From Owenia fusiformis (Eukaryota; Annelida; Polychaeta; Sabellida; Oweniidae): 64,000 nt of DNA. The notes beneath the pieces are model-generated. The model made no database searches. It was not told the origin of the DNA and saw only the letters and a program-made list of their open reading frames with translations. Within the stretch, counting starts at the first letter, position 1. The number at the start of each line of letters is the position of its first letter. The stretch lies in the NCBI GenBank assembly GCA_903813345.2, contig CAIIXF020000010.1:21151181-21215180 (forward strand), in the 5' to 3' direction. Below, one piece after another: positions 5,909 to 55,097 of this stretch. Both the position numbers and the translations under genes were made by a program.

Positions 5909-8900
5909 TCAATCAGTTGGGAGGCCAGCTTCTTGTCGTTCCTGTAGCCATAGCGCGCGAAACTCTGGAGGAATACATGCTAGTCTAAGGCACTTTTCAC
6001 AGAGACATTCTTTCTGTATAATGGTGACAATCCCCGGGAATTGTGGAACCTGATAAAACAAAATGTGACATGCGGCTAAAATATACAGTTAAAACAAACC
6101 CATGAATTATTCTTACAGGGGCAGCAAAGAATAGAGAGTGTAAATTGTAAGGAGCTATATCTTTTCAAAAATCATACTAGTCACTTGGTCTCAACGTAAA
6201 TATTTAACAAGATGGCCTCTCTCCAGATTTCCGTAAAAATCGTATTTTCTCCGAATGTGTGCAGTTAGTGCATCATCTCTAGTTTGCAAAAAATGTTATT
6301 AATATTCATTTAGTATCATCAAGAAGCGAAAAATTCACAGTTTAAATTGATCGGTTTTGTAACATAGACACCGCTCTGAAGATCTGAAGAACACAGAGCG
6401 ATGTCCCTGCTACAAAAAGGTGACAGGTCATCTCAACCCCAAGTCATCTCAACCCAGTCCAACTCAACCCCAAGTCAAATCAACCCCAGTAAAACTCAAC
6501 CCCAAGTCAACTCAACCCTGTAAAACTCAACCCCAGTAAAACTCAACCCTATTCATTTGTGCAATGTCTAATTTAATTTTTTTATGATGAATAATTAAAT
6601 TCATTCATTTCTGAAAATCTAGCATTTTGCATGATACTTTGAATAGAAAGTTGTAAAAGTATTCCAATAATAAAAACGGTTAAGCTCAAGGATAATTCAT
6701 CAAGTTGTCACTATTATTTAATTTAGACATCTTTTGAAATCAAATTTTAGATAATTTAGAAATAATTAACAATGTAATATATAGAGGATATCCTATGATT
6801 TATGAGTGATATGATTTTTATCCACGAATATCAATATCCATGAGTGGATTAAAATCATATCACGAGTAAATCATAGAATGTTCTTTTTATTCCATAGTTA
6901 AAGTCATCATCAGAATCGTCGGAAATTAAGTTATTTAATTCGAATTTCCAAACAATCCGGCGATGTTGACACTTAGCCTCGTTTTGAGTCTGAAGTAGCA
7001 AAAATCCATAAACCATCGCATACGACGTCGTATGTCATGGCTAAAAAATCGTATGTTATGGTTAAGTGAAAATTTGTCAAAAATATCATATTTTACCACT
7101 GATTACAAAAATACCGTTTTTATTTTCACATGTTATCCTATGAATATCATGCTAACTATGGAATAAAACTTTTTATTATTCATATGAACATGCTTTAACA
7201 AAATCATTAACATTTAGTAATTAATAGACTGAAAGCATAGACGTAGCCAGGAGGGTTGCGTACACACCCTCCCACCAATTTTGAAGGAAGTTGCTTCATT
7301 TTTTGTCAAAACATAGCTTTTTTGGCTCGCTTATGCCACGATCGGCACCCTTGACTGAAAACGTGATTTTTTGGGGCGATTCCTCCTGACTGAAAGCTGG
7401 CTATGCCCCTGGAAAGGGATGGTCATGTTCCAGTTTGCCAAATAATCACGAGTGTCAACCTCAGAGGGATTACAACAAAACAAACGTATTAGCAAGATTA
7501 ATAAAATGACCCATATTTTAATCCTATTAGTATCATGTTGACATTTTGGAGATAAACTCATTATTAACTAGCTAAAAAGGCAGTGGTCTAAGAATGAAAA
7601 TCACAAACTGAATCATCAGAATTATTTTTATGAAATAAACTTTCTTATAAGTTTATCGATATATAGAAATATAGGGGTTGAGTTTTACTGGGGTTGAGTT
7701 TTACAGGGTTGAGTTGACTTGGGGTTGAGTTTTACTGGGGTTGACTTGACTTGGGGTTGACTTGACTTGGGGTTGAGTTTTACTGGGTTGAGTTGACTTG
7801 GGGTTGAGATGACCAGGAAGCTACAAAAACCAGTGATGATGCTGTATATACTAATTACAACTTTGAACCAAGAAATCATGTGCTAACTGCATGTATATGA
7901 TTTGAAAAATCGTTTTAGAAATGGGTAAAATGTAGAAAACGAAAATATATTTTAAAATACGTTACCGGAAGGCAGGCGGTCATCTTGTTGCATAGAAATA
8001 TTGGCTATGTAATGAATACTTATACGAAGTGACCAAGAGATCATCACGTGTTTCCCTCACATTTCTAAATATTTCATCTCAAAAAGGAATTGAGGTGTTT
8101 GATCAAATGAGAAAATTATTGAAGTTTTGAAAACAAAAAAGGCAACAGAAAACTTATGTTCACATTCTGACTGACCTTAGGAGCTCTTTGGTTCCAGAAA
8201 GAGAGGTCACATCCACAGCATCGTCGGTTTCTTTTTGGACATCCATTCATGAATATCTGACAGGAACCTTTGTCTCCTTCTTCAAGAAATCCATTTACAC
8301 ACAATGTACCTTCAACTTCAACTATTTGTGTTGGTGGAGGTGTCGTAGTAGTAGTTGTTGGTGGAGGTGTCGTAGTAGTAGTTGTTGGTGGAGGTGTCGT
8401 AGTAGTAGTTGTTGGTGGAGGTGTCGTCGTGGTAGTTGTTGTGGTGGTAGTCGTTGTTGACGTCATCGTCGTCGTCGATGGGGTCTCAGTGGTAGTTGTG
8501 GGCTCTGTTGAATGGTAAAGAACATTCTTCATGCGATAATAGCTGTGAACTACCAACACTAGTCATCTACTAAAACTTTATTGTGACTATTTTGAATTGT
8601 ACATTGCAGGCAGGTATTTAGCCATCTACTTCTTTCTGGTGTCCTCTTCAATCTCAAAAAGAAATTGGTGAATAAACAAAATATGAAACAACACAAGAAT
8701 GGAACAAATAGCAAGTATTTAGCTCAAAAACAGGTCCCCGTCTGTTCATGTAATGACACATTAGGGAAAAATCAGAACGCACCACCTAAGGGATCAACTG
8801 TTGTGTACCATTTGAGATTGTATCAAATGTGTACATAAATTATCTACTGAATCTTGATAATGGAAACCATACAATTTTATACTTTCAGGGTTTGATCCAC

Positions 8901-11900
8901 CATATGTACCAAATATGTGAGTAAAATTTGGATAAAATGTATGAAATGTTGAAAAAAGTAGAAATCAGTAACCACAGTGAAAATAGAAATGGAGATATAC
9001 ATGTGGTCACATGGTTTCTTATTTACTGGAAATTCCCCATGACCCCCAATTGACTTGATTAGCTTGATATTGAAGCATTGTCCATTGCAACAATGGGTAG
9101 CACTAGCGTATGAAAACTATCTTTATACCTATACAAAATGACTGCGCAAGAGTCAAGATAACATTTTTCAAGCCTTGGACGTCAGACACACGGAAGAAAT
9201 TTCTAACATTCGACACCATCTGGAACATCTCGGTTTCACCAGCGTCCTGATTTTTCTCGTTTAGAACCCCTACCACGAAAACGTTAGCCCTGAAATTGAT
9301 TATCTCAAATTAAATATGAACCCCGACAACAATAACATGTTTAACAACTCATCAAAATGATATAATAAAGGTAATAATCCCTAATAATTCGGTATTATGA
9401 TAGATGCAAACCTGAAATCTTCATGACCAGTATACTTATAATAACCAGTAAAGGCGTTTGTGGCACACTATTTGTAACCCAATGTTTCTTGAAAATTGAA
9501 TAGTTTCATAACTTACTAAAAAACCCAGGTTTATTTGGCTTCATCGGCGGGAATATTGTTTAAAACTGTTTTCGGGAAAAATTAAAAAACAATGTGAATT
9601 CTTATTTTTGTTTTCCCAACTTTTCCCAATTTTCCAAGTCAAAGTCAAAGCTTGCAAAGATGGTCTTTGTTCAAGATTGGACTAATTTAGCTTTAGAAGC
9701 CTTACCACAAATTTGTCATGAGTTTACAATTGAAAACATTTAATCGTATGTCTATCAATTAAACTAACCCATCGGCTATTAATGCCTGAGCATTTGCGAT
9801 CGTTTTTGCCCCATTTTTCTTGGGAATCGTTACACCATCAGTGATGACAAGAACGGTGTTTGCTACTTCTGGTCTGTCGCCATTCTCTTCGGTAAAATAC
9901 TTGGTTCGAACTTCATCGAGAGCTTTGTGTGTATGTGTTTTACAGCCTTCTTGTGTTACCAGGTTGCTTAGATCCATATTTTCAGCGTTGGACTTGGCTG
10001 TGGCTGAATCGATTGAGTCTTTTAGGAAATACTGATGTTGTGTACCTTCGTTAAAGTTCACCTGGCCAATCTGAAAACAAGATAAATAACGTACATTTTA
10101 TTCATTCGAGTTCTGTTGCAGGGTTTCTGGCACACATTGAATACTTTAAGCTGACATATAAAATCGAAACGGCGTCGCCCTATACAAAAGCATGTGTATT
10201 AGGTGAACGAGAGTTGAATTCTAATTAGTTAAAATGCTCCGTGAACGATTGGATACGCCGTTCCCCAAAGACCCCCAAATTAAAGTAACAATGTATTGCG
10301 CCTTACCTGAGTCTGATCAATATCTGGCCCGATATCAAAAGAGTTCACCATATCGATGATAAAAGTCCGGATTATTTCTCCATCTTCGGGACTTATACTA
10401 CAGGATGTGTCCAGCACAATCATCACATCTAGACCACATGGCTTGCCATCCCCATTCAATATCACATTGCCTATAAATCGCATACCCCTTGCATAAAATA
10501 CTCCTGATTGTAATATTCTATGATATTTAGCACACTTTTTGTCAATAATATAATAATAGATATAATGTATTATGTATGTGATGTATATAGAATGATATAT
10601 ACATAATTTACATAAAAAGTTTCTTGATATTCTGTTTTCTGAACATCAGTCATTAATTTTCATATTTTACTAGATGTGTTTTGAGTCACAAAAACAGTTT
10701 TCTTCTATAAACTGAACTCAGTTTTAGTACAGTTGATAAAGGATCCAAATAGGATTAATTGTTGTGAATAGAAAAACACTGTTTTTGTGATTTAATAACC
10801 GTCGTGAATAACATGTTTAGGGTGTTTTGAGTCTCCTGGTATACATGTACACATTGCTCATATTTTGAATATTTTATGGAGTCTGCGCCACTTTGCTTTT
10901 TTACATAATTGTATACAAGACACGAGGGTGAACAATATCACACGCTTGAAAAGTATAGACAGTTTTCGGCACATCAAATGGCCGCCTTGTTCTAGAGAAG
11001 TTAAAATACATGTTTTTAAAGGTTGTACTTGGACGTGTATAATGTGCGCATTAGTTCTTCCATTTGTACAGTTGCCGATTGAGTATAAGGTCATGCGGAA
11101 AATAATTGTAATTACAATTAGGTGCTTGGAAAAGTAAATTGAGAGCGGGAGCGTAATCCCGGGGGTCGAAATATTACACGTTCGCGTTTAGGTTCTTTAT
11201 AAACGTCTAACTAAGTACCCTTCGCATTCGTTCGACTCCACTTCTTAAGAGAGGGCTCTGTCTTATAACTAGCCTCTGTGCGCAGAATACTAACTAAGCC
11301 TCCCTAGTATTTACCAAGGCACCAGCAAGAATAAGAATGCTAAAAAACTAATCATTTCTAAACTTTCATAACTAAGCCTCCCTAATATTTACCAAGGCAA
11401 CAGCAAGAATGCTAAAAACTAATCATTTCTAAATTTCATAACTAAGCCTCCCTAGTATTTACCAAGGCACCAGCAAGAATGCTAAAAACTAATCATTTCT
11501 AAACTTTCATAGAAGGAAACATCCACCAATCCATCATAAGGAAATGCTTGAAACGTGTAAACATGACTTCACAGACAAGATTTTGTTATTCAACTGAACT
11601 TAAAATACAATACAGGAATACAGATAGTCTGAAGACGGAAAATCCCAAATGGTTGCCTTAGGATTTACCCATAATGCCCAAAAACGTATCAGTTCTAGAT
11701 ATTCAATACCAAAAAATCAGATCTTGAAATTTCAGATTTATCCAACAAACGGTTTGGTCTAAATCTTGTAGACAAAACTTTACAGACAATATACATTAGG
11801 ACTGAAATTCAAAAATGACCGCCTTAACATTTATCCAAAATGCCCAAAAACTAATCAGTTCTAGATTTTTATACCAATAATATACATCCCTGAAAACGCA

Positions 11901-13300
11901 TAAACAAAACTGTACAGGCAAGATTTTGTTTTAGTTTAACTAGTTTTGTTTTTACAAGGCTCCCTATACACGGCAATCAACACGTTACGGCGATTGACGG
12001 TTACCTATATTACGCTTGATATTGAGGTTCCAATAGCTCACACCCCTCAACTAAATAATATATGGAATACAAAGCGTTAATGGGGACCGAGATTACAGGT
12101 ATGAACATTTGTTCATCTCTGGCCTTCGTTTATAGGTCATCACTTTCCTCTGGTAGCTGCACAACACTTTTTTATACGAACCATTATTCGTCTTATAGAT
12201 CTTTCATCCCATGCTGCCTGGCAAAACTGTACTTCCCTGTCGCATTTCATTCGCAAACAATGTAATTATTTTTCATCCACTTCCAATATTAGATCTTATC
12301 TTCATATTCTTTTGACTCACCTGACGAAATATTGTTCTTTTCAAACTCTTATATTCATTGAGTAAATCTCTGTGCTTCAAGTTCAATAGCATCGAACCTT
12401 GATCCATGAATGACGTTAGATAAATAAAAATATAAATGGTTTTGCTTGAATTGTTTAAAATAGTGGTATGTGGTAAAACATATTCCATTAAGCAACATGC
12501 GTATTGGCGTAATGTTAGTTCAGTTTTACGCCAAATACATGTAAATAGTCTCCCTTTGCCATGTAAACAGCAGCAATTCTTTTCAGATATGACCTAAATA
12601 CGCTTCAAATAGGGGTGTGGCATTTTGTAATCATCATAAAAACTTTTTAAGGTATTAAGAGAGTTTCTTTGGAGTATCTGCCATTACCATCCTCTTTTCC
12701 CAACTCAATATCCATCCTATCTTTGACTATGGCACCAATATTCTGGTCATATCCATAGGTACTTTGATATCCTGTGTTTAGTACAATTATAGTATTATAG
12801 AAAACTGTCGTGTTGCCTCTCTATCATTCTTGTGATGTTCAATCATCCAAACTATCAGTTTGAAGCTTCGAGTGGTTCTTACATTTGGCGTGTTCCGTGG
12901 GTAATACACATTTTATTGTTTGATTCCTTCACATATCACATAACCTTGTACATATGAAAATAGCTAACATGTCTCATGAAAATATCACAATCACAAAAAT
13001 GCTTTTTGGAAGACCCAAACGTCGATTTTTATCCTTCTTTTTCAAATCATTTCCGATTCTCAGACGATTTATATCTAAATTTTGGACGATTCACCAAAAT
13101 CGGAGCATAACGTACGTTTCACAACCTAGATGATGTTTGCAATATTACTAACATTGATTGGTCTACCATGTGTAGTGCTAAATAAAAGAATACTCGATCA
13201 ATCGCATTTCTTTTATTGACGTTGGAAATCACTAACCCTCATCCTGAGCTCTAACACGTGTTGCCAGGCATATTCCAAGAAGTACGTACAATGACAACAT
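5909..13300 (-). CDS. secreted VWA-domain protein with polyThr linker and Cys-rich tail, copy A (386 aa, six coding exons)
   Basis: Exons on the minus strand: 13300-13237, 10470-10307, 10070-9769, 9289-9129, 8504-8176, 6049-5909. All have GT donors, AG acceptors and compatible phases (1,0,2,1,0), giving 386 codons plus TGA. Exon 1 is a signal peptide (MLSLYVLLGICLA...RAQ). Exons 2-4 form one von Willebrand A domain: DTSCS (the DxSxS MIDAS motif), the MIDAS Thr in CKTHTHKAL, and VLVITDG are all intact, so metal-dependent ligand binding is plausible. Exon 5 has a Thr/Pro linker with 9-residue PPPTTTTTT repeats, then a module C-x12-C-x6-C-x6-CC-x-C containing GDKGSCQIFM. Exon 6 is a short tail CLCEKC...GLPTD. 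Exon 1 has its own 3' splice site, so a 5' UTR exon exists (see 13681). The nearest relative is copy B. The function is not established; an extracellular matrix, adhesive or defence role is inference. Confidence 0.88.
6423..7815. mobile_element. fold-back element whose arms are tandem 15-bp repeats
   Basis: Near 6425-6553 the + strand carries tandem copies of AACTCAACCCCAGTA and variants. At 7675-7815 the reverse complement (GGGGTTGAGTTTTACTGG and variants) is arrayed. The outer edges also match as inverted sequence: GGTCATCTCAACCCC against GGGGTTGAGATGACC. The whole is about 1.4 kb with about 130-bp arms inside intron 5 of VWA copy A. No transposase frame was seen. Confidence 0.75.
6788..7170. 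repeat. nested palindromes inside the fold-back element
   Basis: One inverted pair is TCCTATGATTTATGAGTGAT (about 6790) against ATCACGAGTAAATCATAG (about 6862-6880). A second is TTTTATTCCATAGTTA (about 6885) against TAACTATGGAATAAAA (about 7154). They suggest an older small element nested within the larger one. Confidence 0.6.
8334..8425. repeat. 27-bp coding minisatellite in exon 5 of copy A
   Basis: About four near-identical 27-bp units encode PPPTTTTTT on the minus strand. They account for the longer linker in copy A compared with copies B and C. Confidence 0.85.
11291..11512. repeat. three tandem copies of a roughly 80-bp unit
   Basis: Each unit begins ACTAAGCCTCCCTARTATTT and continues through CAGCAAGAATGCTAAAAACT and CATTTCTAAA. 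Unit starts are near 11293, 11371 and 11451. They lie in intron 1 of VWA copy A, between exon 2 (10470) and exon 1 (13237). No function seen. Confidence 0.9.
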
Positions 13301-14841: not shown

Positions 14842-14976
14842 TGACAGGAACCTTTGTCTCCTTCTTCAAGAAATCCATAAATACATAATGTACCCTCAAC
14901 CTCAACAATTTGTGTTGTAGTTGGTGGTGGTGTTGTCGTAGTTGTTGTTGTAGTAGCGGTAATGGTTGTTGTAATA
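14842..14976 (-). pseudogene. exon-5 fragment of a VWA family gene
   Basis: The minus strand reads a Thr-rich run, then TTTQIVEVEGTLCIYGFLEE and GDKGSCQ, matching the first two thirds of exon 5 of copies A and B. The match stops abruptly at GSCQ, and unrelated sequence follows with no remaining cysteines. Other exons are absent nearby. The piece lies between inverted repeats TGCAATACAG at about 14782 and 15013, which hints at capture by a small element. Confidence 0.85.
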
Positions 14977-17870: not shown

Positions 17871-17872
17871 GT

Positions 17873-19690: not shown

Positions 19691-20414
19691 CTGTCAGTCG
19701 AGGTTCAAAAGCTTGGCTATTTTCAAAGTGGCTATCGCGGAAAATTGAGGAAAATTCAGTAGCTTTATAACTGATTACAAGCGTCCTGCATTGTAAAAGA
19801 ATTTGCAAAAATTTATATCTGCCTTTTAGCTCATTTTTCGTGTCTGCCATTTTAGCTATCATTCAATTTTCTCCTTCCGCGCAATAGTTCCAACAAGATG
19901 TTGCCACACCCCACACCTCAAATGAGTCCATTCGATGGCTTCAGGCTCACTATGGTGTCATTTTGTCATGCATTCAGTCTTGTTTTTCTTCTCTGAAAAA
20001 ATGAAGAATGTAGGTATAATACTTTCCGAGAAATTTGATGATTCAAATTAGATATGATGTCGTAAGAATGAAATTTGATAAAATAAAGTAAGAGGTCAAA
20101 ACTTTTTGGACAACAGTTGTACGATGCCACCATTGATTCCGAGTGTATTCAAAAACAAGGTAGTAATATTTAATCGGGTTATTCGCCCTAATTATACATC
20201 ACTGTGTTATCCAGGTGCTGCATAGAAAAAATCTCAAATCCCAAAATATGGCAAATATTCCGTTGCAATGATTAGCGGAATAACAATAGAGGTAAAGGCG
20301 CTCTGTGGGATGAAGACATTAATAATACAATAGACTGTAATAAGTAAAATAAGTATTTGACCAAATCATTAATGATATTGACACATTCAATGATAAATAC
20401 TGCTACTATGGCGG

Positions 20415-22697
20415 ATGGAAAAAAACGTAATGCAGACTGTTAAACCTGATGTTGAGATAAATGCTGACAATACAAGTATAGAAGACACAGAAAACGTAAC
20501 GCAGACTGGTAAAGGTGATGTTGAGAGAAATGCTGACAATACAAGTATAGAAGACACAGAAAACGTAACGCAGACTGGTAAAGGTGATGTTGAGAGAAAT
20601 GCTGACAATACAAGTATAGATGACACAGAAATCGTAACGAGTACTTTCAAAAGGATTGGAAGCACAGGCATGGTAATTGAACTGATTCAAAATATTGGCA
20701 TTGTTCCCGTTGATGAGCCAAATATTGAGAGAGCAACAGAAGACATGATAACTGAACATACTCAAAATGATGAACACATTGTGAACGATAGGATGACCAT
20801 TGAAGAATTGATATCGGATACTGACCAAACTAAAAATTACGACATGATTCCTGATGCCTGGCAATTCAAATATAATTCACTAAAGAAACAATTATCAAAA
20901 TTTGCGCTGATCACCTCCATTCAGAGTCTTCTGCAGGTCCGCAATGCTAAATCTGTGCTCGTTAGAATGATTTGGTTCCTCATAACCCTGTTTGTTAGTA
21001 GCCTCGCCATCAACGGAGTCCATGACATCACCCAGAAGTACCTCAATTATCCCAGTGAAGATATACTGTATAGTAAGGAAGAATCGGTAACATTTCCATC
21101 GATTACAATATGTGGTGTAAGACCTGTTGTTTTCACAGAAAAGCATCTAGCTGATCAGAGAAGATCTTTCTACACAGTACACACAGTAGATACCGAAAGT
21201 GCTTGGATATACCACGATTACCGTCTAAAAATGTTGGAATCTCGAGCTTTTTCAGATGAAAAGGAAAAGGATCAGGAACGCATTAATGCTGTTTTGCGAC
21301 GAATAGTTTCCAAGGAAAGATATATAGAAAACATTCACCAATGGAACGACATTCGATTCAGAACGTATGACGAACTCATTTTAGAATGCCGCTTTAATGG
21401 AAAACCGTGTGGCAAAAGGGATTTTAAACAAGTAATGTTTGGACGCTATGGTAATTGTTTTACGTTCCAAACAAATTCCACCAATGACATGTATCGTGTA
21501 AGTGAAACTGGGCCAGATTTTGGTTTGAACCTAATTCTTTTCACAAACAGCTATTCACCTCTAGATGAATTTAGAAATAATGATATATTTAAACGCTTTC
21601 CTACTCCAACGACTACTATGGAAGAGGCATCAGTTCTCGCTGAATTCAACAGTGACTTTTCGGCTGCAAGTGATGGAATTAGATTGTCTATTCATGCTCC
21701 CGGGACCATGCCTGACCCTGAAAAAGATGGAATTGACTTGTCCATGGGGACATTTAGTGCTGTTGGTCTCTCACAGGATGAACGTACTTTGTTGGGACCC
21801 CCACATGGACATTGCACAAATGAAAAATTCAACAAACACTCAACCTACACGTATACTGAGAACATGTGCCTCAAGCAATGTCAGCAGAGGGAGACAATAA
21901 AAAGATGTAAGTGCATAAACCCAAAACTCCCTATCCCATCAGATATCGAGACACCTCACGAAATGGAATACTGCGGATCCATAATGAGAGAACAACGCAA
22001 GGAGGACTGGGTATATGCATACTTTAATGTAGAAATGCAGTTTGATTGGAAATTATTCAATGAAAACTTTAGGCTGTATAAGTGTGAAAAGGATGTGGCA
22101 GAACAGATTTCTCTAGGTGGTGACAAATGTGGTTGTAAGCGAGAATGTAAAAGCACGGTGTACAGTTACTTACAACACTCAATTCCATGGCCAGGTGAAA
22201 AATATTATAAGGGTCTCAAACGAAGGAACTTCATATCATTCATGTGAAACCATCCAGAGGTAGGTCGATTCCTTAACAAGACGTATTGGTCAGTGATTGG
22301 AGTAGATGGTCTAAATGTTTGTGAGGTGAGTCAAAACTTGTTTTCAAATTCATCTGAAATTTATCAAACGGCCGTTCAAAATGGTGAAAATCCATATCTC
22401 ACCTGTCTGGATTACTCCATATATGTCAGGTTCTATAGAACTCCTTATATAAACTGGTATCCATTTATCAACAAATTCATTGAAACAAACTTCTTGAAAG
22501 TCAACGTATTTTACAGTTCTCTAAATGTGAACAGGATTGCCGCAGAGCCTAGTTACCCATTCAATAAATGGTTATCTGATTTCGGGGGTATCATCGGGAT
22601 GAATATGGGTATGTCACTTGTATCTCTTGTAGAATTGGGATACCTAATGGCATCCATTGTCTTCGTTCTTTACTGCAAACGTAAGAGGGACAAGTAG
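20415..22697 (+). pseudogene. DEG/ENaC/ASIC-type sodium channel, single exon, one in-frame TGA
   Basis: Trimeric plasma-membrane cation channel subunit with two membrane segments. The frame runs from ATG 20415 to TAG 22697 (760 positions), broken only by TGA at 22245-22247. An N-terminal repeat region (residues 4-72) precedes TM1 at about 183-203. The family motif FPSITICGVRP starts at residue 227. A cysteine-rich extracellular domain follows (HGHC, CLKQCQQ, CKCINP, CGCKREC). The pore segment is at about 719-745, with SDFGGIIGMNMGMSLVSLVE; GMS at 732-734 lies where the G/SxS selectivity filter sits. The His-Gly gating motif usually found before TM1 is absent: TSIQS occupies that place. The TGA removes about 150 residues including TM2, so it is a recent pseudogene, a null allele, a base error or a readthrough case. 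Single-exon copies of this family are not rare in molluscs (general knowledge). Confidence 0.88.
20424..20630 (+). repeat. three 69-bp units encoding a 23-residue repeat
   Basis: Units start at 20424, 20493 and 20562. The second and third are almost identical in DNA (NVTQTGKGDVERNADNTSI plus E/D-DTE), and the first is more diverged. They lie in the cytoplasmic N-terminus of the channel. Confidence 0.95.
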
Positions 22698-26216: not shown

Positions 26217-28831
26217 TTAATCTGTTGGGAGGCCAGCTTCTCGTCGTTCCTGTAGCCATAGCGCGCGAAACTCTGGAGGAATACATGCTAGTTTAAGGCA
26301 CTTTTCACAGAGACATTCTTTCTGCACCATGGTGACAATCCCCGGGAATTGTGGAACCTGGTAAATAGAGGTGCGAAATAGAAAAAATAAATTAGAGTAA
26401 CTAGCATACTAACACAGGAAAATAAAAATAAAAAATCTTATTGTTAGGTGTCTTTCCATAATACCTTAAAATATATAACAATAAGGTATACATTGAAGCT
26501 TTATTCTCAAGCATAATGTATGTTACAAGATGGCAAACATACTAAAAAATAATAACAATATTGTATGAAAAATAATACTCTGAAAGATAATGAAGCATAC
26601 AGTAAATAAAATTATTTTCCACACATTGCTTGGCGTGATACATTAAATACAGTATCCAAAATAATATTTCAATATTTTACAGCAGTTACTTTTAAATATA
26701 GTAAGAATGATTACCGTCATCAATTTCTTGTTTGAAATTAGCAGTCGAGTGAAAAAGTATAAATATTTTCATCATAAAAGGCAAGGAAGTAAAACTTTAC
26801 GGAATCCTTGCAAGAAACGGTTCTAGATAAATTCTAGAGCTATACCAATGCAAACCAAATCGACACACATAAGAAAGATGATGACAAAGGCATGTGTCTG
26901 TGAAACGATGAATCGAAATTACACCGACAATGCGTATTCATACTCTAACTGACCTTTGGAGACCTTTGATTCCAAAACGTGAGGTCACATCCACAACATC
27001 GTCGGTTTCTTTTTGGACATCCAACCATGAATATCTGACAGGAACCTTTGTCTCCTTCTTCAAGAAATCCATTTACACACAATGTACCCTCAACTTCAAC
27101 TATTTGAGTTGTCGTTGTTGGTGGTGGTGTGGTAGTAGTAGTTGTTGTAGTGGTAGTGGTCGTTGTTGACGTTGTCGTCGTCGTTGGTGGCTCAGTTGTT
27201 GATTCATCGGGATCTAGTTAGTATGAACGTACATAAATGGCTTCTTAGAAAAGTTATTTTTAAATTATAAAACCAATAAAAATCGCATTGAAAAATTAGT
27301 TAGGAGTTTACCTATACAAAATGTCTGCGCAAGAGTCAAGATAACATTTTTCAAGCCTTGGACGTCAGACACACGGAAGAAATTTCTAATATTCGACACC
27401 ATCTGGAACATCTCGGCTTCACCAGCGTCCTGATTTTTCTCGTTTAGAACACCTACCACGAACACGTTAGCCCTGAAATTGATTATCCCAAATATGAACC
27501 CCAACAACAATAACACGTTTAACAACTCATAAAAATAAATCAAGCGGTATATGTAATATGACTTACATCATTACCATAAAATTGTTTGAACTTTTAGAAC
27601 TTACCCATCCGCTGATAATGCTTGAGCATTTGCGATTGTTTTTGCCCCATTTTTCTTGGGAATTGTTACACCATCAGTGACGACAAGAACAGCGTTGTCA
27701 ACCTCTGGTCTGTCGCCATTCTCTTCGGTAAAATACTTGGTTCGTACTTCGTCAAGAGCTTTGTGTGTATGTGTTTTACAGCCTTCTTGTGTTACCAGAT
27801 TGCTTAGATCCATATTTTCAGCATTTGATAGCGCTGTCTGTTTGTCAGTGGAGTCTTTTAGGAAATACTGATGTTGAGTACCTTCGTTAAAGTTCACCTG
27901 GCCAAACTGAAAACAAATTAATTGATTTTGGTCAAAATATAAATAATCGTCCTTTTTATCAATTTAATTGTTGTTATTTTACATGTATGTCCGCTTCTAC
28001 ATTAAATGCATACATAATATCACATATGAAAATATTGGAATAAAATACACCCACTGTTTAGGTATGTTATTCTGACGATTGCTAATGGAAACCTGTTGCC
28101 AAGGTAGATGTGGCGAACGTCTATGAGCAAAACAGGGCATAAGAAATACAGACTCACTTTAGTCTACGCTCAAATAATATCTAATTCTCCAATTAAGGGT
28201 CCTTTTAAAAGAAAATCATCATATATATGTTATCACCCTTCTTTCGCGCGTAAATGAAATTTCAGGACCTTAAGCGATATACCAATATATATACCTTGAT
28301 ACTTCCTAAGAAACAATAACTTCTCCAAACCAAATGCAATTTCACCCAAGTACTATGTGGTGCAGTGTTTTAGTCTTACCTGCGTCTGATCAATTGATGG
28401 TCCGATGTCAAAAGAGTTTACCATATCGACGATAAAAGAACGGATTATTTCTCCATCTTCGGGACTTATACTACAGGATGTGTCAAGCACAATCATCACA
28501 TCTAGACCACATGGTTTGCCATCACCATTCAATACTCCGCCTGTAAAACGCATACCCCTCGGATTGAATACACCCGAGTATATCCAAATAATAAAAGGTA
28601 ATGATATATGTACAGGGCGCGAAAATAAAGATGTCATTAGAATTAACAATTACAAAGGCCGATTTTCATCATTCTTTTTGAAACATATCTGATTAAATAA
28701 ATGAATTGACACCAAAACTGAAACATAAATTACTTGTTCACATTTTCTTTTATTGACGTTGAAAAGCACTCACCCTGAGCTCTAACAGTGGTTGCCAGGC
28801 TTAGGCCCAGAAGAACGAGCAATGACAACAT
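26217..28831 (-). CDS. secreted VWA-domain protein, copy B (360 aa, six coding exons)
   Basis: Exons: 28831-28774, 28540-28380, 27906-27605, 27472-27312, 27213-26954, 26357-26217. Together they give 360 codons plus TAA with correct phases throughout. The signal peptide is MLSLLVLLGLSLA...RAQ. The VWA domain keeps DTSCS, the Thr in CKTHTHKAL and VLVVTDG. The Thr linker is shorter than in copy A. The Cys module (LCVNGFLEEGDKGSC, RCCGCDLTFW) and the tail (CLCEKCLKLAC, ending GLPTD) follow. Exons are very similar to copy A in DNA, while introns differ in length, so this is a fairly recent tandem duplicate. Introns are compact (about 2.6 kb for the whole coding gene), and a putative 5' UTR exon ends at 31578. 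No lesion is seen. The product is probably extracellular; its ligand is unknown. Confidence 0.88.
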
Positions 28832-36194: not shown

Positions 36195-39100
36195 TTAGGA
36201 AATTGGAAGTCCCGAAGCTCGCCGTTCCTGTTCCCATAGTTGTCGCAGTCGGGCTGGAATACATTCCTTTCTAAGACACGCCTCGCATAAACATTTTTGT
36301 TGCACGAGAGTCACCATTGCTGGAAACTGAGGAACCTGGATGGAGAAATTGCATATGTTAGTCGTATCAAAAAACGAGCTTTTACTATATTCAAACATTC
36401 AAATAAAGACATGGTAATTTCATTGTCTTTAAAACAATTCGCTCTTAAATCAGGAGGAACGAATATGTTTCCTTATATAATTATCAGATGACCCAGATTG
36501 TGCTTTTTTTGTAATTTATAATTTAACATTTGGATTTTGAGATATATCTTAAACTGATAATCTATTTTATAGTATTCGCGTGCTGAGACAGACAAAATGT
36601 AACATAACATCTTCTCCCACTAGTTTTTCTTTAAATGTATACTTTCATAGCACGGTGCAAAGAATGATAAGAAGTGATGATATGTTTAAAATAATCGGTT
36701 TAAGTAGTCTAAAGGTTAAAGCCAAAAGAGTTTTAATAAAAAAGCAAATACAATATCTATGCTGTTTGATTTGCCATCCATTATCAACTGTCTACAATTT
36801 GCATTCAAAAGACCATGTGCAGTATGGCAAGTGATTTTAGACGGTCATATCTTGCACCATGAGTACTTTCTGGTAATAAATACAGTTTTTTTAAAATTAA
36901 AACAATATGTTTTCTTTCAAGTGAAGTACACATGGTGATAAGAACATTGATCGAACAATTCGAAAAATTATGAACAGGGACCCCAGGTCAACATTTTCAG
37001 AGAGTTGGATTAATATTTTACTATCATGGGGACTTCACTTGAAAGAAAACATGTTGTCTTTATAAAAAAACACAGTATCAAGTTTATGGCCAGAAAGTAA
37101 TCCTGGTGAAAGATATGACTTTCTAAAATCACTTGCCATACTGCACATGGACCTTTGATTAATTACCTGGGTATGGTTCTTGAGAAAGTATGCCCTACCT
37201 TCGGAGAAACCTGATTCCAAAAAGTGAGATCACAGCCACAACATCTCGCGTCTCCCTTTGAACAACCAACCATAAATATCTGACATGAGCCTCTGTCTCC
37301 CTGTTCGAGGAAGCCATTGGGACATAGTGTCAGACCAGTAATTGGAGGGAGTGTTGTGGTAGTCGGAGGTCGCGTGGTGGTAGTCGGAGGTCGCGTGGTG
37401 GTAGTCGTCGTTGTAGTGGTAGTAGTTGTTGTAGTAGTAGGTGGTGGTGGTGCCAATGTAGGAGCTGTATGATTATAAGGTATACGTACAAAGACCATGA
37501 TTTTATGATTTACGACTTAATAACACGGCCGCTTGTTTCTGATTTAAATTTTTTTTAAATACCAATTGACGTATGTGGCAATGACAAAATAAATTCTAAC
37601 GACGAGAGTACATATAAGGTTCGATAAACAAAACAGGATTTGAACGCAATTCCTGAAACAAAGGTTTCAAACAGAATTATCTTCCTTTTCTATGTTGACC
37701 TAGCTTGTCGGATCAACGGAGAACTCAAATATCCAGTGGAAAACTGTAACAATATGTATAACTATGTGATACACTATGATTGTGATATTGTGTTTTGTAC
37801 AACCGGAAGTTGTCATAATAAAACGGCATTGTGGGATACTTCAAGCCTCGTGCTTTAATGTTTGATTTATTTTGTCCAACTATTACAAAAACTCAATAAA
37901 GAAATAAAGTGTTATGCATCCTCTTGTGCTCTGATCGAGATGTAGCTGCACAAATGTAAATGCCACACACTAAAGATGAAAGTCATTGGAGAATTCCGCT
38001 CAGTCATGGGTAAGAAAGGGATGAACCTAGTACCCAAAGTCCGTTATAAAAGCAAATGTGCTGCTGAGCTGGCTAGTTATGTGATGATAGCATGACTTGA
38101 AGTCACATGATTGGTCAAGTTTTCATCATTTCTTCTTGATGATTAAGAGCTATTGCAGAAACTAGTAAATAAGTTTTTGAGCTATGTTTCAAATTAAGGA
38201 ACTGGGGTGGTACAAAATCGGGTACAAAATGCTGATCTCAGGTAATATTTATACATTTGTCTGAAATATATGTACATGACGAAGCATTCAACAATCAATT
38301 TAAGGCTGAATATATTGCATCAATAGAAAACTTACCAACTTTACATAGATCTTCGGAAATCTCTAAAAACATGTTTGTTAGTTTATCAAAATCATCGACT
38401 TGGAACAAATTCCTCTCCGTCGATGCAACCTGGAGCAATTGGGTACCCGCATCAGCATCGTTCTGATTCACCAGCCCAATAACAAACACATTGGCCCTAA
38501 TAAAAGTGTAAGTGTAAAAGAATCACAAAGGCACTGATAGAAATACACGTACATGCATATATAAACATAATTTATTGTCGAGTCTTTGGGTGCATTTTCG
38601 TATGCCAGCGGGCGCAATTCACCCGTACAGCACTTAATGAGCCTTGTCAGCAGGTATCACGAAAAAGAACAAAAAGCTTTGCGATGCAAATTACATGCTC
38701 ACATGTTTTCAACAATAACGCTCATCCAAGCGCACTTAAACCTTTTAATACCGCTATGCCAACTTTGTCAGTAACACTCGCGTTCCAGTCAATCGATGGA
38801 GCACCACATGGGTGCCATTGTGTCTGTGTGCGCTTGAATGAGTTGAATGATTTGTTAAAATCATGCAACCATGCAATTCACACCGTGATGTCAATTAATC
38901 GTTTTCATGATAATTAAAATTCAACACGTTTGAAATTAGAGTTGAATTATTTTATTTCCGGTTGATATAACGTCGTAACGTTAGTGAAATCGAACGCGAT
39001 TTCAACTGATTGGATAACATGATGTGATCATGAGTAGGTTATGTGAGTAGATGCACGATATGATCGTGTTATTCTGCGAGCAGCAACCGAAGCGTTTATA

Positions 39101-42100
39101 CACAGTTTTAGCTAGATGCGACTATTATGGGTGCATTCGGTTTTTATCATTTAGCCCTTGTTATATGCATATATTGATACCTATACACGATGAACAGAGG
39201 ATGCATATATTGCAATACCGTCAATGTGATTCTTCATTGGGATTGATACTCGTCTTACATGCAGTAAGAAAACCAGCGATTTGGCAAGGGAAATACAAAC
39301 CATAGTAGGGTATGGACACACGCCTAAATGAACATTGGAACACAAGTTGTCCTTATAAGATAGATACAAGTCTGATATAAATAAGATGCTTTGGACTGAT
39401 TCAAAGAAGACTACTTTGTTGGATTGAGATCCATATAAGATAGATACAACAAATACAACCAAAAGTAAGGTATGGACACAAGCCTATGTGAACACTGGGC
39501 CACATTTTGTCCATATAAGATAGATACCAGCGTGATATAGATTAGATGCTTTGAGCTGATTAAAAGAAGACTACTTTGTTGGATTGAGATCCATATAAGA
39601 CAGATACATGTACGTGTGATACAGATATGATGCCTTGGACTGATTCAAGGAAGACTACCTTTGTTGGAAATCTCAAAGAAGAGACATTTCGAGCTTTGGT
39701 CACTAGTTTGCCCGTTTTTTAGAAGGTTCTGGCGTAGCTGCTGGCTCCAATTTAATCCTATAATATATGTGATATTATGTTGTGTGGTTTGTGGTGAAGA
39801 CTGTTTAATTAGGAAATAATTAAAATTCAACACGTTTGAAATTAGAGTTGAATTATTTTATTTCCGGTTGATATAACGTCGTAACGTTAGTGAAATCGAA
39901 CGCGATTTCAACTGATTGGATAACATGATGTGATCATGAGTAGGTTATGTGAGTAGATGCACGATATGATCGTGTTATTCTGCGAGCAGCAACCGAAGCG
40001 TATATACACAGTTTTAGTTTATGTTGTAAGTTGTCATACAACGGATTCGAAAATTTAGTTTTATTGTTCGAGGAGGCATACCTTTTTCCCTTTCGAAGTC
40101 ACAAAGATTTTGATCTGGGTTTTAACGGTGTCAGGTCGATAAACTAACGTTTTTCATATTGAAGTTAGTGAACACTTTCTTGTAAGTGCTTTTGACCAAA
40201 TCAACGTTTTTGAATTAAGTATATGTGTTCTGAAGTTGATGTAACCTGTTCCCATTTATTACTATCTTGGGAAGTATATTTTTCTGCAATTATTACAATG
40301 CATTGCATAATATAGGATGTTAATTAAAACAATTAGATATTAGGTTTCTTTGAAGCAATTATGTCATTTGCATATAAATCTGAATCTCAAGGCATGGTTT
40401 AATTTTTACTGACAGCGCATTGTATCTTAGCGAATAAACATGTATTTAAGTGCGTTTCTGTCATATTGTTTCGAGGAAGGCACAAAGTTTTGCTTTTTAA
40501 GATATTGATTATATTCGAAAGTCCTTTATATTTTTAGATATATGTAATATCTATTTCCAGAAGGGCATCAAGTCTTGGTATTTTAAGATGATAGTTGTGT
40601 TCATCAACAACATTTACAGTAGTTGTTTTATATTAATGTGACAAACACATTAAGAGAAGTGCTTGTCAGCTAATTGCATTTTATATTAAACAGTTTTTAT
40701 AGTATTTAGATTTTACAACGTTTCCAAGAGTTGTACTTTTGCTTTTGTTGCAATACGAGACCAGTTGGTATAAGGGTTTGCAAAGCATGGTGCTTTCCAG
40801 ATTTTATATTTTTCATCACAAAAGGTCGTAGGATTTTTGTATACGTTCGTTCGTGTATTGTGATAATCACGGAATTTTTGTCTATTGTGACCAACAATGT
40901 CGCATATTACGACAGTCTGTTAAAGAAGTAAGTTTCATTTCAGTTACGTTTTTTGCCAAGAGGCAATGATATGGTTACAGTGCAAGTCTGTAGACAGTTA
41001 TTTAGATTATTGTTAATATGTATTAATGACAGTTTGTGATTACTGTATTAGATAGTGAGGTATATTACTCACAGATTTTGCATAGTGCTAGAAGGCACTA
41101 TATACGTGTATGGTCCTTATACAAGTTTTTTATAGTGCAAGTTGACAGATACAGTCACAATTTAGAATTTGGTTTATTCCGAAATTTGTGAATTTATTTG
41201 AGATCTTTGACGTGTTAACAAACGTGTAGCCACAATGGCTTTAATGACAGTTGATCATTGGTTTTGGGTTGTTGGATTTAGATGTTTTAATTATACGGTG
41301 CCTTATTGATGTCTTGAAGGCAGTTAACATCGTAAATCAGCAGCGAGGTTGAGAGCCGAGGACGGATGTTGGGTATATTTGAACCTAAGAGGTTTCTGGC
41401 ATTAATGCCATCGGCATCGTGGCCGCTATGACATTGGCATCGTGGCCGTCATAGGTACCTGGATGCATCGCGAACTGGCTTCATTTTTTCATTTTTTCAC
41501 TCATTCTTTGTACCAGATGTACTTAACGCTTTTCCAATAAACGCGGGCTGCTGGCTCCAATTTAATCCTATAATATATGTCATATTATGTTGTGTGGTTT
41601 GTGGTGAAGACTGTTTAATTAGGAAATAAGGCTCATTAATAACTGCTGTGTGGGTGTATTGCACCCGCGTGTTTACGAAAATACAGCCTCAATGAATTGT
41701 TGGTCATTTATTACATCCTATTTTGAATGCTAAAGTCTTTATTTTAAACCTAAAACCAGAATCTCTGTCAATAAAACATCGACAACTCATTCAGCTCTGG
41801 TTTAAATCATCGAACCACTCTTTCCAATCGCTGTGTTATAGTGGCGAGACTAAGAACATTTTTGGGGATTTACTGAGCCGGTTATGTATATCAAAGAACC
41901 TGTCGTGAAGATTTGAAAACTACATACCCATCATCCGTTAATGCCTGTGCATTCTCAATTGTTTCTTCTCCTTTATTCTTAGGTATAGTCACCCCATCTG
42001 TGATTACGAGAACAACGTTCGGTACTAAGGGTCTGTCTCCATTCTCCTCAGTAAAATATATGTTTCTAATTTCGTCAAGAGCTTTATGTGTATGTGTTTT

Positions 42101-45100
42101 GCATCCATCGTTAGTGCGCGTGATCAGGTTGGAAAGATCGATATTTTTAACGTTTTCCAAGGCAGCTGCTTTATCTGTAGAATCTTTAAGATAATATTGA
42201 TGCTGTGTTCCTTTATTGAAATTTACTTGGCCAAACTGGAAAAGACGTAAAAATTGGGATCAATTCTTTTTTCTGTTATCCTTGTCTTATCGAACAGGAA
42301 CTGAAAATAGACACTGAAATAACAAAAAGCGATTTTGGACCAAAAGGTAAAACAATTGAGTGTAGAAATTGTCAATATCAAATTTATATAGCACAATACC
42401 TGAACCGAGATAGCCGCAGTGTCTACGGTGTCTTGTAGCCGGGCTAGTACCCGTAACAGATATAAACCAGAGAACAGATATAAATTATCCGGAGAAATCA
42501 TAGTGATCATTTGTTTAGTCATCTCACAAATATGCAATCTTGAATACCCAGAATCTGTCAGAAATAAAATCCCATGGGAACCCAGAACGACAGATATCTA
42601 TCACAATTTTTTCCCCTTTAACTGCTCTAACTTTAACAATTTTTATCCAATCTAAACAGATTATATTCTAAAATGTGTATATTTACTATTCTTATGAAAT
42701 TAAACATCAAATATTGTGTCTTTAGATCTAAATGTCCAAACAACTAGCAAACAATGAAAATGCTCTGGTTTCAAACCCTTTTTAGAGGCTGGCATTCAAG
42801 AGCTGAAAAATCATAATTGCTGGCGTTTTCATCGCGTATGTTGAATGGAAAAAACTCTCACATAGTGTTCACTATATGGAAAATTGTAACATATATTTTT
42901 ATAAGATGGACAAATATCTAGCATTTCAAGTTGCTATTGTCTTTCTTTGCCTTTATTTGTCAAATATTTGAGTAATTTAGATTGTTTTCATGTTTTGATG
43001 TACATGTAATGCAAGATCATTGTATGGCTTAGGTTCGCTATACAGATAGTTGTTTTTTCATCAATTGCTGATACATATACTAACGTCCGATGGATCTGAT
43101 ATATTGTGAAATCAAGGGATAAACAATTTAATTTATGTACCTTACCTGACTTTGATCAAAACCAGGTCCCACCTGGAATGAATCAACCATGCTTGCAAGA
43201 AAGTCCCTCACTTTTTCCCCGTCTTCTGCTCTAATACTACACGATGTATCAAGCGCAATCACCACGTCGAGTCCACAGGCTCCATTTTCTTCTGCAAAAG
43301 GATACAAAAAACACATCAGATAAAAAGTCCCTGTATTGACATCCAGTTCCCCTTTCTCAAATTATTTACACTTATTACACAACATATTTCCATGCATCGT
43401 CTTGTAAGGTGTTTCTCCAAATATAAATACTTGCATATACTATATATGACACACACCTGTAAAACTACGAATATACAGTGCTATAATTACACATACATGT
43501 ATATCACACAATGTACACAACATAAAATACACGATATATCAAATATAGGAAAATCCCAAACACAGAACCGCCTAAAATTTCACTAATTTATTTTATCTAG
43601 TAAGCAAATTAACTGATATTTTAGATACGTACTTTAACCATTGGTTATCTAAAATGTTTTAAGAAAACTAACACCGTTAGGGGGTCACCTTTTTCAGGCC
43701 CGAAGCCTTAGGGGTTCGGGGGGTTTGAGCTCGTCAAAAGTCTTGTCAAAAGTGATTCCCCTGAAGGTTTCCAAAAAATGCCCCGCCCCTCCCCTCCCCT
43801 CCCCTGGCTACATATCCAGTTATGTCAGGACTGAAAGCAATGCGCATGCCCCTTGAAATTCTGTGTTTGAGATTCCATAAGCCAAGTCAAGAGCATAGAC
43901 ATGACTTGGGCATATTCAACCATTTTGTAATAAGGTAAAAATGAAGAACAAGGATTTAAAACATCTAAATCAAAAGAAAGATGATATGCTCCTCATCCTT
44001 GGAGGCCTAGCCTAGATAATCAACCAATATCATGCAAGAAGCATATTCAATACCTGAACATGACACAAGTGGTTGATACACTTGATGAATAATCATCTTC
44101 ATCCTATTTTTACAAAATGCACCTCAAAGTCATGTACAGGGATTTTGCCACAACGTTTTTAATATTACAGACAAATGTTTAAATCATATATCATTGGAAA
44201 GACAATTCAATTTCCCACAAAATGATATATAAATGATATATAATTTATTTCATATAAATGAGTACCTGTCTTAGAATAACATTTCGAATACCACAGGGGT
44301 CAGAATCATGATTTACCAATTGCTGAATATAGAATGCTCAGGAGTGACAAGACAGTTATAGACCCTATGTCATATTTTGGGATATAATTATAGGAGGTCA
44401 AAATTGTTGATTTATGAATCAAATGAAAGTAGATTGATTCAGGAATATAATATTATTGAGTTCTTTTACGATTTTGATAGGTATTGGTAATAAAGCCTAA
44501 ATAATGTAATGAAGTCTGTATCAACTAGTTGATATTCATTCATTTTCAAGACATTTTGGGGATAATGCTTATTTAAGACTAAAATTATCATGAAATGGTC
44601 AATGATGATGTTGTACTTATATAACTTATCTTACTGACATTTTAAAGAGCAGACAATGCAATTGTAGACACCAGTAGAAGAAATAATGGAAATGAGAACC
44701 CCCGATAAGGAGAGATTTTTAGAAGGACACAACTATTTTATTCTGGAAGTGATCATCATGAAATTTTAACATACTTTTAGAAATTAGGTGAATTTATACA
44801 TTCTGAAATATTTTCTTCGAATTATTAAAACGTGCGTTTGAAGAACGGTTTTTGTGAAGCGATAAAATTCAATTTTCCATATTTAACCGTTACATTTTGC
44901 TTAAAATCAATAACTTTCCCATTACTGTACGAGCAAAATAGAATATGGCTAAGTAACATAATGAAGCAAAGTCTTAGTTTTCGTAAAGAAATCGATGGGC
45001 GCTCAGCCAGAAATATATTTTAAGAATTTTTTACGAATTGGTTCCATTGTTCCGTCATTCTCATGAGTGGAAAAGGTCTCAAAAACATATTTCTAGGGAA

Positions 45101-51132: not shown

Positions 51133-51243
51133 TATAAATGACAAAAACTCAAATACTATAATGAGTCATTAAGACCACATTGTAAGCTTTTTTACACACC
51201 TCCGCCCTGCACCTCTGGTCTACACTCCTGCTCCACCAATATA

Positions 51244-52227: not shown

Positions 52228-52492
52228 TATTACTATTTTCCGTGAGCAATGTGTATTTTATGATAAAATATTTTTTAACATATATGCACATATTTGAAAC
52301 TTGGTTACAAAAAGAATGTAAGTTTGGGATTTGTAAAGTTGGTATTATTTTAGATGTTTTACGTCTTGAAAATAAAGTTCATGGTTTTCTGCAAAAGGGT
52401 ATCAAAGAACAATAGTTTTATTATTACAGATAGCTTCTATAATATCCAAACAATAAACCTTTTTTCATGTCAAAAACGACATCTTTGGAGAA

Positions 52493-52526
52493 CGGGTAAG
52501 AACTAGTTTGGTGTGATAGGGGGTTA
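52493..52526. mobile_element. solo Harbinger-like terminus
   Basis: AACGGGTAAGAACTAGTTTG then GTGTGATAGGGGG is the reverse complement of the left end of the element at 52604, followed by TTA. Only the terminus survives, 78 bp from the full copy. Confidence 0.75.
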
Positions 52527-52603
52527 TCTACACGTTATTTCCAAAGCGTCTTCTAATGAGACCGTCGGAGGGACAGTGGAGATTCTGGACTGCATCGCTT
52601 TAA

Positions 52604-53402
52604 CCCCCCTATCACACCAAACTAGTTCATACCCGTTCTTGCCAGTCCTACGAAAACGTCGTAAAACGGGCTCAATCTGGCTGTGGTCGGGAAATATGTC
52701 TAAAATAATTAGCTACTTCGTTCATAAACAGTCTTCAATACGTCCATCTCATTCGCAGTTCGTTCAGGTCGCACCACATCGGTGTGCAACGTCGTATAAC
52801 GCGTCCCTTAGTCTAGAAGGTCATCATGACATGACTACAGAACGGTATGGTCGCCATCGAATTTTGAATCGATTCAAAATTCTACATCACATTCCCCGTC
52901 CGGGAAAGTCCATGAAGTTCGTAAACAGACCGTAGAACGTTGTAGTTACGTTCATTCCGTTAGCACACAGTTTAAAACCAGTTTTGAAGAACCCAGTGGC
53001 AACTTGCTTGGTGTGATAGCTATATTTTTGCTAACTCATTGATAAATACGTTCTTAATCAGTTTTAACCCGTTTTCAATTAGTTCTACCTCGTTCTCAAT
53101 ACGTCCTCAGACAGTTCAAGTCGTTGTAAAAACGTCCCTAGCAGGATTGAAGTACGACGGTTCCGTTCGTAGTACGTCAACTTCGTTGTTAATAAGTTGT
53201 CACTCGTTCTAATTGTAGAACGTGACGACCAAGAGAACATTTTGAGCATGTTCTAAGTTCTAGAGGACCTATCCGTTCGAGTACGTTCGATGACGTTTGT
53301 AAATAGACCCCAAACGGTTCTAAGTACGTCCAGTCCGTTCGTACACAGTTGAAGCCTGTTTTCGAGAACCTAGTGAGAACTAGTTTGGTGTGATAGTAGG
53401 GT
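52604..53402. mobile_element. Harbinger-like MITE, copy 2, about 799 bp
   Basis: Same orientation as, and near-identical to, 3621-4417, including the internal duplicate of the right end (GCTTGGTGTGATAG near 53006-53020). Flanked by TAA on both sides, a 3-bp TWA duplication. No coding capacity. Confidence 0.85.
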
Positions 53403-54128
53403 AAGCGATACAACTGATTCTGTCCATCAAGCTCTAAAATGTCTGTTTTGTTTTGAATTATTCGAAATAAAAGAAGGCTTTTGAAAGATAAAACCAGAAT
53501 ACTAATCTTTATATTCTTACATATAGCTAGATCTTAATATAGTGCTTATCCATTCCAGTCTTCTCTTTACCTTCATCAACAAATTTAATCTAAAGTTTTT
53601 TTCAGATCAATTTATTTCAATTAGATTCAACATTTTGACAATTTTTATACAAGCTAAAATAGTACATTTATCATTATTATGTTAGCATAGCCTGATATAA
53701 GCAACACCACTGAAGATATTTAACAAGAAGAAACAGAAACAGTTAGTACTAAATACTAGCCTCGCGCCCCTAGGATATGACTGCTTCGATCACCAAAATT
53801 GAAAAAACAAACAAGTGCAGCTTTTGTATCAATTCTTTCCAGAATATATAACAATCCATATAATTCCATCTACGCCCGTATCCTGATACCTGATTCCTGA
53901 TACAATTAGATAATATAGATTTGAAGGTGATCGACCACAGTATGTATCGTGGCAATTTACCGGTCTCCTATTGTGTGAATGGGGCAATGTTTTTGTTTTC
54001 ACATTTAGTTATGTAGATTGTATATACATTTATAATAATCGCCATATTATAGATTTATAAAGTTATACAATGAAATCTACATGAGATATGTTTGTATTCC
54101 CTGTTGTATTGGAGATTTTTTGGAAAAT
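53403..54128. other. 3' flank of copy D
   Basis: AT-rich. The segment 53923-54128 is duplicated at 55366-55590 (see that entry). No exon seen. Confidence 0.45.
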
Positions 54129-55097
54129 CTATTCCACAGGTAGTCCAGCTTGTCTCCTAGCATCCTCCCATGCTCCCCGCAGAGCTTTTGGAACGCAAAT
54201 CTTTTTCTTCATGCATGCTTCACATAAACATTTGGTATTGCCCGGCCTCGTAGTGACATACATTGGCCGATTTGGCACCTGAAGGGGTAGATAGCATAAA
54301 CGATAACACAAAGTAATATTTAATTAACATTCGTCATATTATCTTGACACGAATCGTAAATTGTGGTTCATTATTATTTAGTTTATGCCCTCTCATTTAC
54401 CATGACTACGTCAAGTTTCAAGGAACTTAAAGGACAACAGTACATAAATCTGTGATCTGACCAACACATTTCACGTTCACCTTTCACCCTACCCCTCCCC
54501 CTCTGGGATGGCGGAGAGTTTCAGAGAGCTTTTAAAAGTATTGAGACCTTGACCGTGTTGTCTCCAAAAGTGTGACATAGATTGCCAGCAAGGATAGCCA
54601 TACGGAAGCCATAATTGACTAAAGTCGGGTGGCGATTACTAATTATAATCGTCGAGTTTCCCCTTTCTTTCTCCAATAGGGTAGTGAAATATAAAGTGAA
54701 ATATATGTTTTGACTCTCGACAAGAACTATGAATCCACTTGTCAAACCTTTGATACTCTTTGTACAAACAAACATACACGTACTTTAAGATCCCGAAATG
54801 ATGAAGTAGCAGGTATTAGTATCTTCACTAGTAGTTTACAACTTAAAAGGAATTTCATCAACAAGCTTAAAATACACATTACCGCTAAAACTGGATCATT
54901 AAACAGCATACAATCTCCACAACACAATGGATTGTTCTTTGGACAGGCGTTCATAACAATCTGGCAGGATCCTTTATCCCCGGGATTGAAAAACCCCCTG
55001 GGACAGATTCCAGTTGGTTCCGCGGGAGTAGGTCTGGGTGTCGTTGTGGTAGTAGTAGTCGTCGTCGTTGTTGTTGGTGGTTTAGTAGTTGGAACTT
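54129..55097 (-). pseudogene. VWA family copy D: only linker/Cys exon and tail exon found
   Basis: Exon 5 is 55097-54883 and exon 6 is 54278-54129, with splice sites and phases (1 in, 0 out) as in copies A-C and both frames open. Exon 5 encodes KPP, a run of 12 Thr, PRPTPAEPTG, then the Cys module (ICPRGFFNPGDKGSC, CPKNNPLCCGDC). The last part differs from CCGCDLxFWNQ of the other copies. Exon 6 encodes CLCEACMKKKIC and ends GLPVE. No signal-peptide or VWA exon was found between 55.1 kb and the spectrin-repeat exons at 58.8 kb. Either the 5' half was lost, or exon 5 is joined to unrecognised upstream exons, giving a VWA-less protein. It is the most diverged member. Confidence 0.7.

Follow-up and report, generated by a model that had tools for sequence, protein, structure and literature searches.

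What kind of protein is encoded by a row of four similar genes in Owenia fusiformis, and does the cysteine-rich end that they share belong to a described domain family? The window, that is the whole 64,000-nucleotide stretch of DNA analysed here (C10:21151181-21215180), contains four paralogous genes, A to D, all on the minus strand, as well as an exon relic. They form a tandem cluster of a family expanded across the genome, whose members appear from their sequences to be secreted, non-enzymatic adhesion or recognition proteins with a matrix as the most likely setting, a reading to which we give about an even chance. They share a C-terminal region of ten cysteines, which is predicted to be a domain of its own.

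A cluster of four VWA genes

The original prediction described secreted proteins with one VWA domain, a linker and two cysteine modules on a fixed plan, and this observation was confirmed as a whole, its motifs being in place on the minus strand. The limits that it gave correspond to the last base of the stop codon of copy A (5909) and the first base of exon 5 of copy D (55097). The plan consists of six exons, with exon 1 coding for a signal peptide, exons 2 to 4 for the VWA domain, exon 5 for a linker and six cysteines, and exon 6 for four cysteines and the stop codon. Within the window it is complete in copies A and B, the spliced models of which are open from ATG to stop (386 and 360 amino acids), while C has all but the signal exon and D has exons 5 and 6 only. 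The introns in the predicted models of A, B and C are GT-AG throughout and alike in phase.

All exon coordinates that follow are on the minus strand. Exon 1 of copy A (13237..13300) reads MLSLYVLLGICLATRVRAQDE, then a phase-1 donor. The start of its VWA domain, with the DxSCS sequence of metal loop 1, lies on exon 2 (10307..10470; Pfam VWA E-value 5.6e-05 on the open frame, splice sites checked), metal loops 2 and 3 on exon 3 (9769..10070; E-value 2.4e-09 on the open frame) and the end of the domain on exon 4 (9129..9289), which shares 94% identity with copy B over 53 residues. Exon 5 (8176..8504) codes for the Thr/Pro linker, with a 27-bp repeat in 4.7 copies, and the six-cysteine half, and exon 6 (5909..6049), placed by its motif and the spliced model, for the four-cysteine half and stop codon. 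The signal exon of copy B (28774..28831) reads MLSLLVLLGLSLATTVRAQ, again followed by a phase-1 donor. The spliced model places its VWA domain on exons 2 (28380..28540, start), 3 (27605..27906) and 4 (27312..27472, end) and, together with the motifs, the linker and six-cysteine half on exon 5 (26954..27213) and the four-cysteine half with the stop codon on exon 6 (26217..26357).

From exon 2 onwards, copy C reads through to its stop codon. Its VWA exons are located at 43146..43291 (exon 2, VWA start, Pfam VWA E-value 6.4e-06 on the open frame), 41928..42235 (exon 3, tblastn E-value 8e-47 against copy B) and 38336..38496 (exon 4, VWA end, tblastn E-value 4e-08), with exon 5 (37199..37464, linker and six-cysteine half) and exon 6 (36195..36335, four-cysteine half and stop codon) given by motif and spliced model. 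The signal exon is the sole part not located, a scan for hydrophobic starts up to 50.0 kb having yielded a single unconvincing candidate. In copy D, exon 5 (54883..55097, linker and six-cysteine half) was identified by its motif and by genome search and exon 6 (54129..54278, four-cysteine half and stop codon) by its motif. The region C10:21227788-21231149, 12-16 kb outside the window and approximately 21.6 kb upstream of exon 5 of D, contains three VWA exons of the corresponding type, also on the minus strand, together with a likely signal exon. No other exon 5 was found in between, and we infer that these outlying exons belong to D.

The prediction also spoke of relics in the plural. One is clear, the remnant of an exon 5 that belonged to another copy (14842..14972), with 87% DNA identity to exon 5 of copy B, the likeness stopping after the second cysteine; the other candidate, a possible exon-4 relic at 25307-25444, reached an E-value of 0.11 only. 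The secreted VWA head on a spacer of varying length was borne out by the signal exons of A and B and by linkers of approximately 65 (A), 42 (B), 44 (C) and 29 (D) residues. This variation also fits the claim that the cysteine modules are better conserved than the linker, length being the one linker measure compared.

The ten-cysteine domain and its distribution

With exons 5 and 6 of copy B as query, genome searches recovered those of A (E-values 1.0e-25 and 8.3e-24), C (2.0e-20 and 1.4e-13) and D (1.4e-6 and 4.8e-4), and these values, together with the excess of silent over amino acid-changing differences described below, indicate that the likeness between copies is not due to chance. The predicted module C-x12-C-x6-C-x6-CC-x-C is present in A, B and C but not in D, which reads CC-x2-C (CCGDC), while the tail CLCExC...GLP is kept in all four copies.

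The family proved far larger than the window cluster. Searches of the 498 Mb assembly (525 contigs) with five queries gave at least 23 pairs of exons 5 and 6, all pair counts being lower bounds: four in the window, five at C10:15.36-15.40 Mb, one at C1:6.21 Mb, two at C8:9.59 Mb, three at C6:38.19-38.23 Mb, seven at C7:27.07-27.18 Mb and one at C11:25.21 Mb. VWA exons precede 17 of the 23 pairs, and the upstream DNA was also covered for the C1 and C11 pairs, described below.

The training sets for profiles of the six-cysteine and four-cysteine halves comprised 14 and 12 of these exons, which means that the E-values of the training rows are by construction. By profile, 22 intact six-cysteine exons, plus the relic, were found in the DNA examined; 19 have a four-cysteine exon downstream on the same strand by profile, and one more has it by genome search. 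The last two both lie at C7:7.87 Mb; in one the tail, as judged by eye, is divergent, and the other is at the end of its stretch. The cysteine motifs of the two C-terminal modules of the original prediction are thus real, but their separateness did not hold. Since the halves occur together in 20 of the 22 intact copies, the modules are best read as one two-exon ten-cysteine domain, with a phase-1 intron before it and a phase-0 intron inside.

At C1 the pair has sushi and EGF exons upstream instead of VWA exons (Pfam E-values 2.5e-07 and 2.2e-13), and its intron phases, read from the sequence, are identical (phase 1 before and phase 0 inside). A weak trypsin-like piece (Pfam E-value 0.0043, below the cut-off) is also found upstream of this member and may or may not belong to the same gene. 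At C7:7.87 Mb there are two copies of a related six-cysteine exon, the first followed by tandem Dickkopf_N-like cysteine repeats (Pfam E-value 1.9e-06). Given the sushi and EGF context at C1 and the related exon at C7, the ten-cysteine domain is best described as one that can leave the VWA domain.

The joined exons 5 and 6, or their relatives, gave nothing significant against Pfam, NCBIfam and the PDB sequences, in agreement with the prediction, in which this region was not recognised as any named domain. The best values were 0.0086 (one member, C2H2 finger) and 0.023-0.026 (DUF1289) in Pfam, both counting as non-significant over the many queries made, and 0.63 in PDB, with none in NCBIfam. 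A scan of prokaryote genomes with one short pattern, which has limited reach, returned seven stretches, none of them a relative, and nothing that could be tied to the domain was found in those parts of the literature that the searches brought up.

One named fold was considered for these exons, as the tail presumably resembles IL-17 locally, with a Pro, seven to eight residues and then C-x-C-x2-C. It is nevertheless scarcely credible that the cysteine exons derive from an IL-17-like cytokine and represent its diverged cystine-knot end. The IL-17 family (PF06083) occurs at two or more places in the genome among the matches listed in a loose first look, neither of them at a locus of the ten-cysteine family, and it gave no match to 11 alignment members or four longer members at E-values up to 10, a search in which the HMMER filters drop most weak matches. 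The IL-17 likeness of the tail was set aside as unsupported by these searches.

Cystine-knot caps join mucins and von Willebrand factor by intermolecular disulfides, and the cysteine exons could in the same way be a covalent cross-linking tail, joining the molecules of a structural fibre. Such a role would be in keeping with their place at the C-terminus in the VWA genes, with the high density of cysteines and with the occurrence of the cysteine exons apart from VWA at C1. However, each of the mature proteins (A, B and C) contains 14 cysteines, A having one extra in its signal peptide. This number is even and leaves no spare thiol, so intermolecular cross-linking is not implied, and the predicted cross-linking tail is unsupported in so far as it would rely on free thiols. 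Moreover, further cysteine-rich exons follow the related exon at C7:7.87 Mb and the domain may therefore not always be terminal. A cross-linking tail is considered unlikely.

The VWA head and the history of the copies

Spliced copy B matches the Pfam VWA domain (PF00092) with an E-value of 2.7e-26 (93.3 bits, cut-off 23.8) over positions 1-171 of 174, and the gene models of A, B and C have one such domain each. Its first three PDB relatives are collagen VI alpha-3, the mussel proximal thread matrix protein 1 and integrin alpha-1. A complete metal ion-dependent adhesion site (MIDAS), as predicted, is present in A, B, C and the presumed VWA domain of D, comprising DxSxS, the loop-2 Thr and the loop-3 Asp.

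Across the family, a cysteine lies inside metal loop 1 in all 15 VWA exons (14 with DxSCS, one with DISCR) and another just before the loop-2 Thr in 16 of 16, the loop-3 Asp being retained in 15 of 16; for these counts three fragment rows with E-values of 50 or more were dropped, and most exons or close copies had seeded the profiles. The joint presence of both cysteines suggests a disulfide across the metal site. The genome has at least 148 VWA exon matches, members of the ten-cysteine family included, and a large expansion of the paired-cysteine VWA class is suggested. At C5:1.92 Mb, where 801 bases were read, a VWA domain is directly followed by a further Thr-rich stretch, and genome searches reported no ten-cysteine exon near it.

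Wherever C or D was one of the copies compared (22 exon comparisons), the proportion of nonsynonymous differences (pN, 0.11-0.43) is below that of synonymous differences (pS, 0.60-0.89, saturated in 15). Between A and B it is also lower in five exons (pN 0.02-0.06 against pS 0.05-0.30), with no gap between the two in exon 6. That pN falls below pS argues for the window copies being real genes under constraint, as far as sequence comparison can tell. Nonsynonymous substitution rates (dN) among A to C are about equal in the cysteine region (0.04-0.24) and the VWA domain (0.05-0.25), while in comparison with D the cysteine region changes faster (0.53-0.55 against 0.30-0.34, with only exons 2 and 3 of the D VWA domain included).

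These rates bear on a role in humoral immune recognition, in which the VWA heads would bind microbial or damaged-self surfaces, the copies diversify by duplication and the cysteine domain recruit effectors. The family is clustered at five places, with two to seven genes in each, and this arrangement suits the role, as does the C1 member with its sushi and EGF exons and the weak trypsin-like piece. On the other hand, the ratio of dN to the synonymous rate (dS) between A and B is 0.18 for the VWA domain and 0.30 for exons 5 and 6, which gives no sign of diversifying selection in the one young pair measured; for exon 6 alone it is 0.93, with a dS of only 0.05. Immune recognition is regarded as possible but doubtful. 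Silent divergence between A and B differs by exon, with values of 0.05-0.06 for exons 4 and 6 against 0.26-0.37 for exons 2, 3 and 5. The pattern resembles that of gene conversion acting in patches between A and B.

Apart from the cluster, the window has an intronless open frame on the plus strand (20397-22697) for an amiloride-sensitive sodium channel (Pfam ASC E-value 2.3e-53). It has one in-frame TGA (22245-22247), after which the domain resumes (E-value 2e-14), and it may be a retrocopy, a pseudogene or an allele. A 33-bp tandem repeat of approximately 25 copies lies at 58824-59669, and a dispersed repeat of 814 bp is found at 3619-4421 and 52603-53405 with 91% identity. Models of COX1, hemerythrin and mollusc haemocyanin matched nothing in the assembly, the haemocyanin search having been run without a positive control.

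Proposed function and comparison with known systems

As adhesion or recognition proteins, the members of the family would bind a ligand with the VWA head through a divalent metal, the site being held in one shape by a disulfide that links metal loop 1 to loop 2 (DxSCS to CxTxT). The Thr stretch may be O-glycosylated and act as a mucin-like stalk, and the ten-cysteine domain may fold by itself with five disulfides and dock the whole molecule to a matrix or a partner. Mucus, a tube, glue or another secreted matrix would be the most likely setting, and humoral defence the main alternative. Mussel byssus contains VWA proteins, as slug glue reportedly does, and for this reason matrix or mucus adhesion is placed first and immune recognition second. 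A secreted gland toxin or salivary component could also be imagined, since predatory gastropods reportedly have VWA proteins in their venoms and salivary glands; the sequence gives no hint of such a role, and it is very improbable.

A broader proposal, made tentatively and held with less confidence than the adhesion reading itself, is that a mobile, previously unnamed extracellular domain of ten cysteines was exon-shuffled onto an expanded VWA class with a disulfide-locked metal site. The outcome would be a secreted binding system specific to the lineage, with no fewer than 17 VWA genes as well as other architectures.

Several observations weigh against the adhesion or recognition reading. The VWA domain of D is tied to it by order and strand alone across the gap of 21.6 kb, the C11:25.21 Mb pair has no VWA domain within 7.5 kb upstream, and a member at C6:38.19 Mb is without two MIDAS residues (DISCR, ITAG). 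The pairing of the disulfides is derived from cysteine conservation alone, and AlphaFold2 run on each exon alone (four sequences) gave mean predicted local distance difference test (pLDDT) scores of 45.2 and 64.5 and no usable model, so that an autonomous fold is not confirmed. Among the non-family VWA domains of the genome, 11 of 12 have both metal-loop cysteines and one has neither; the cysteines are therefore not special to the ten-cysteine family, and the pair was dropped as its mark. Long open frames were the criterion by which these 12 were picked out of the 148 VWA exon matches (150 of 181 candidates scored), their loop-2 cysteine was read by eye from the frames, and the sample leans towards the pair because the query itself contains the loop-1 cysteine.

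The VWA tree also counts against a simple history. It was built from 15 module-bearing VWA domains and 12 others, taken as free of the ten-cysteine domain since genome searches gave no match beside them. The module-bearing domains need three label changes, a single change occurring in 0% of 200 bootstrap trees, and the VWA and cysteine domains may therefore have partly separate histories. The strongly supported branches are compatible with one origin, and the long branches of two of the other VWA domains meet in the tree.

If the ten-cysteine domain is real and unnamed elsewhere, it would add a new building block to those of extracellular proteins in animals, one missed by the libraries searched. 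Integrin I domains switch shape, and the metal-site cysteine pair predicts VWA heads that would be unable to do so. The C6:38.19 Mb copy with its broken metal site would serve as a natural control, the MIDAS having been lost in nature.

Among known systems, the mussel proximal thread matrix protein 1 (PDB 4cn8) is likewise an animal VWA protein and the second-best PDB relative (E-value 1.8e-16). It differs in having two VWA domains, neither of them with DxSCS or the loop-2 cysteine in the alignment, as opposed to one per model in A, B and C, and it is absent from the PDB matches of the ten-cysteine domain. Collagen VI alpha-3 and the integrin alpha-1 I domain, the first and third PDB relatives, share the VWA fold within architectures that differ from that of the family, and integrin alpha-1 has Asn and Arg aligned to the two positions that are cysteines here. 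VWA proteins also occur in the extracellular materials of molluscs, namely glue, mucus and shell, with Pif-type shell proteins and, reportedly, slug glue as examples; these are not known to contain a ten-cysteine domain of this type. Pif-type shell matrix proteins have VWA beside a chitin-binding domain, whereas copy B has no chitin-binding Pfam match at E-values up to 10. The closest analogy for the ten-cysteine domain is with the CTCK and VWC caps, which are also small cysteine-rich ends of secreted modular proteins, but it differs from these in having no Pfam match to any of them.
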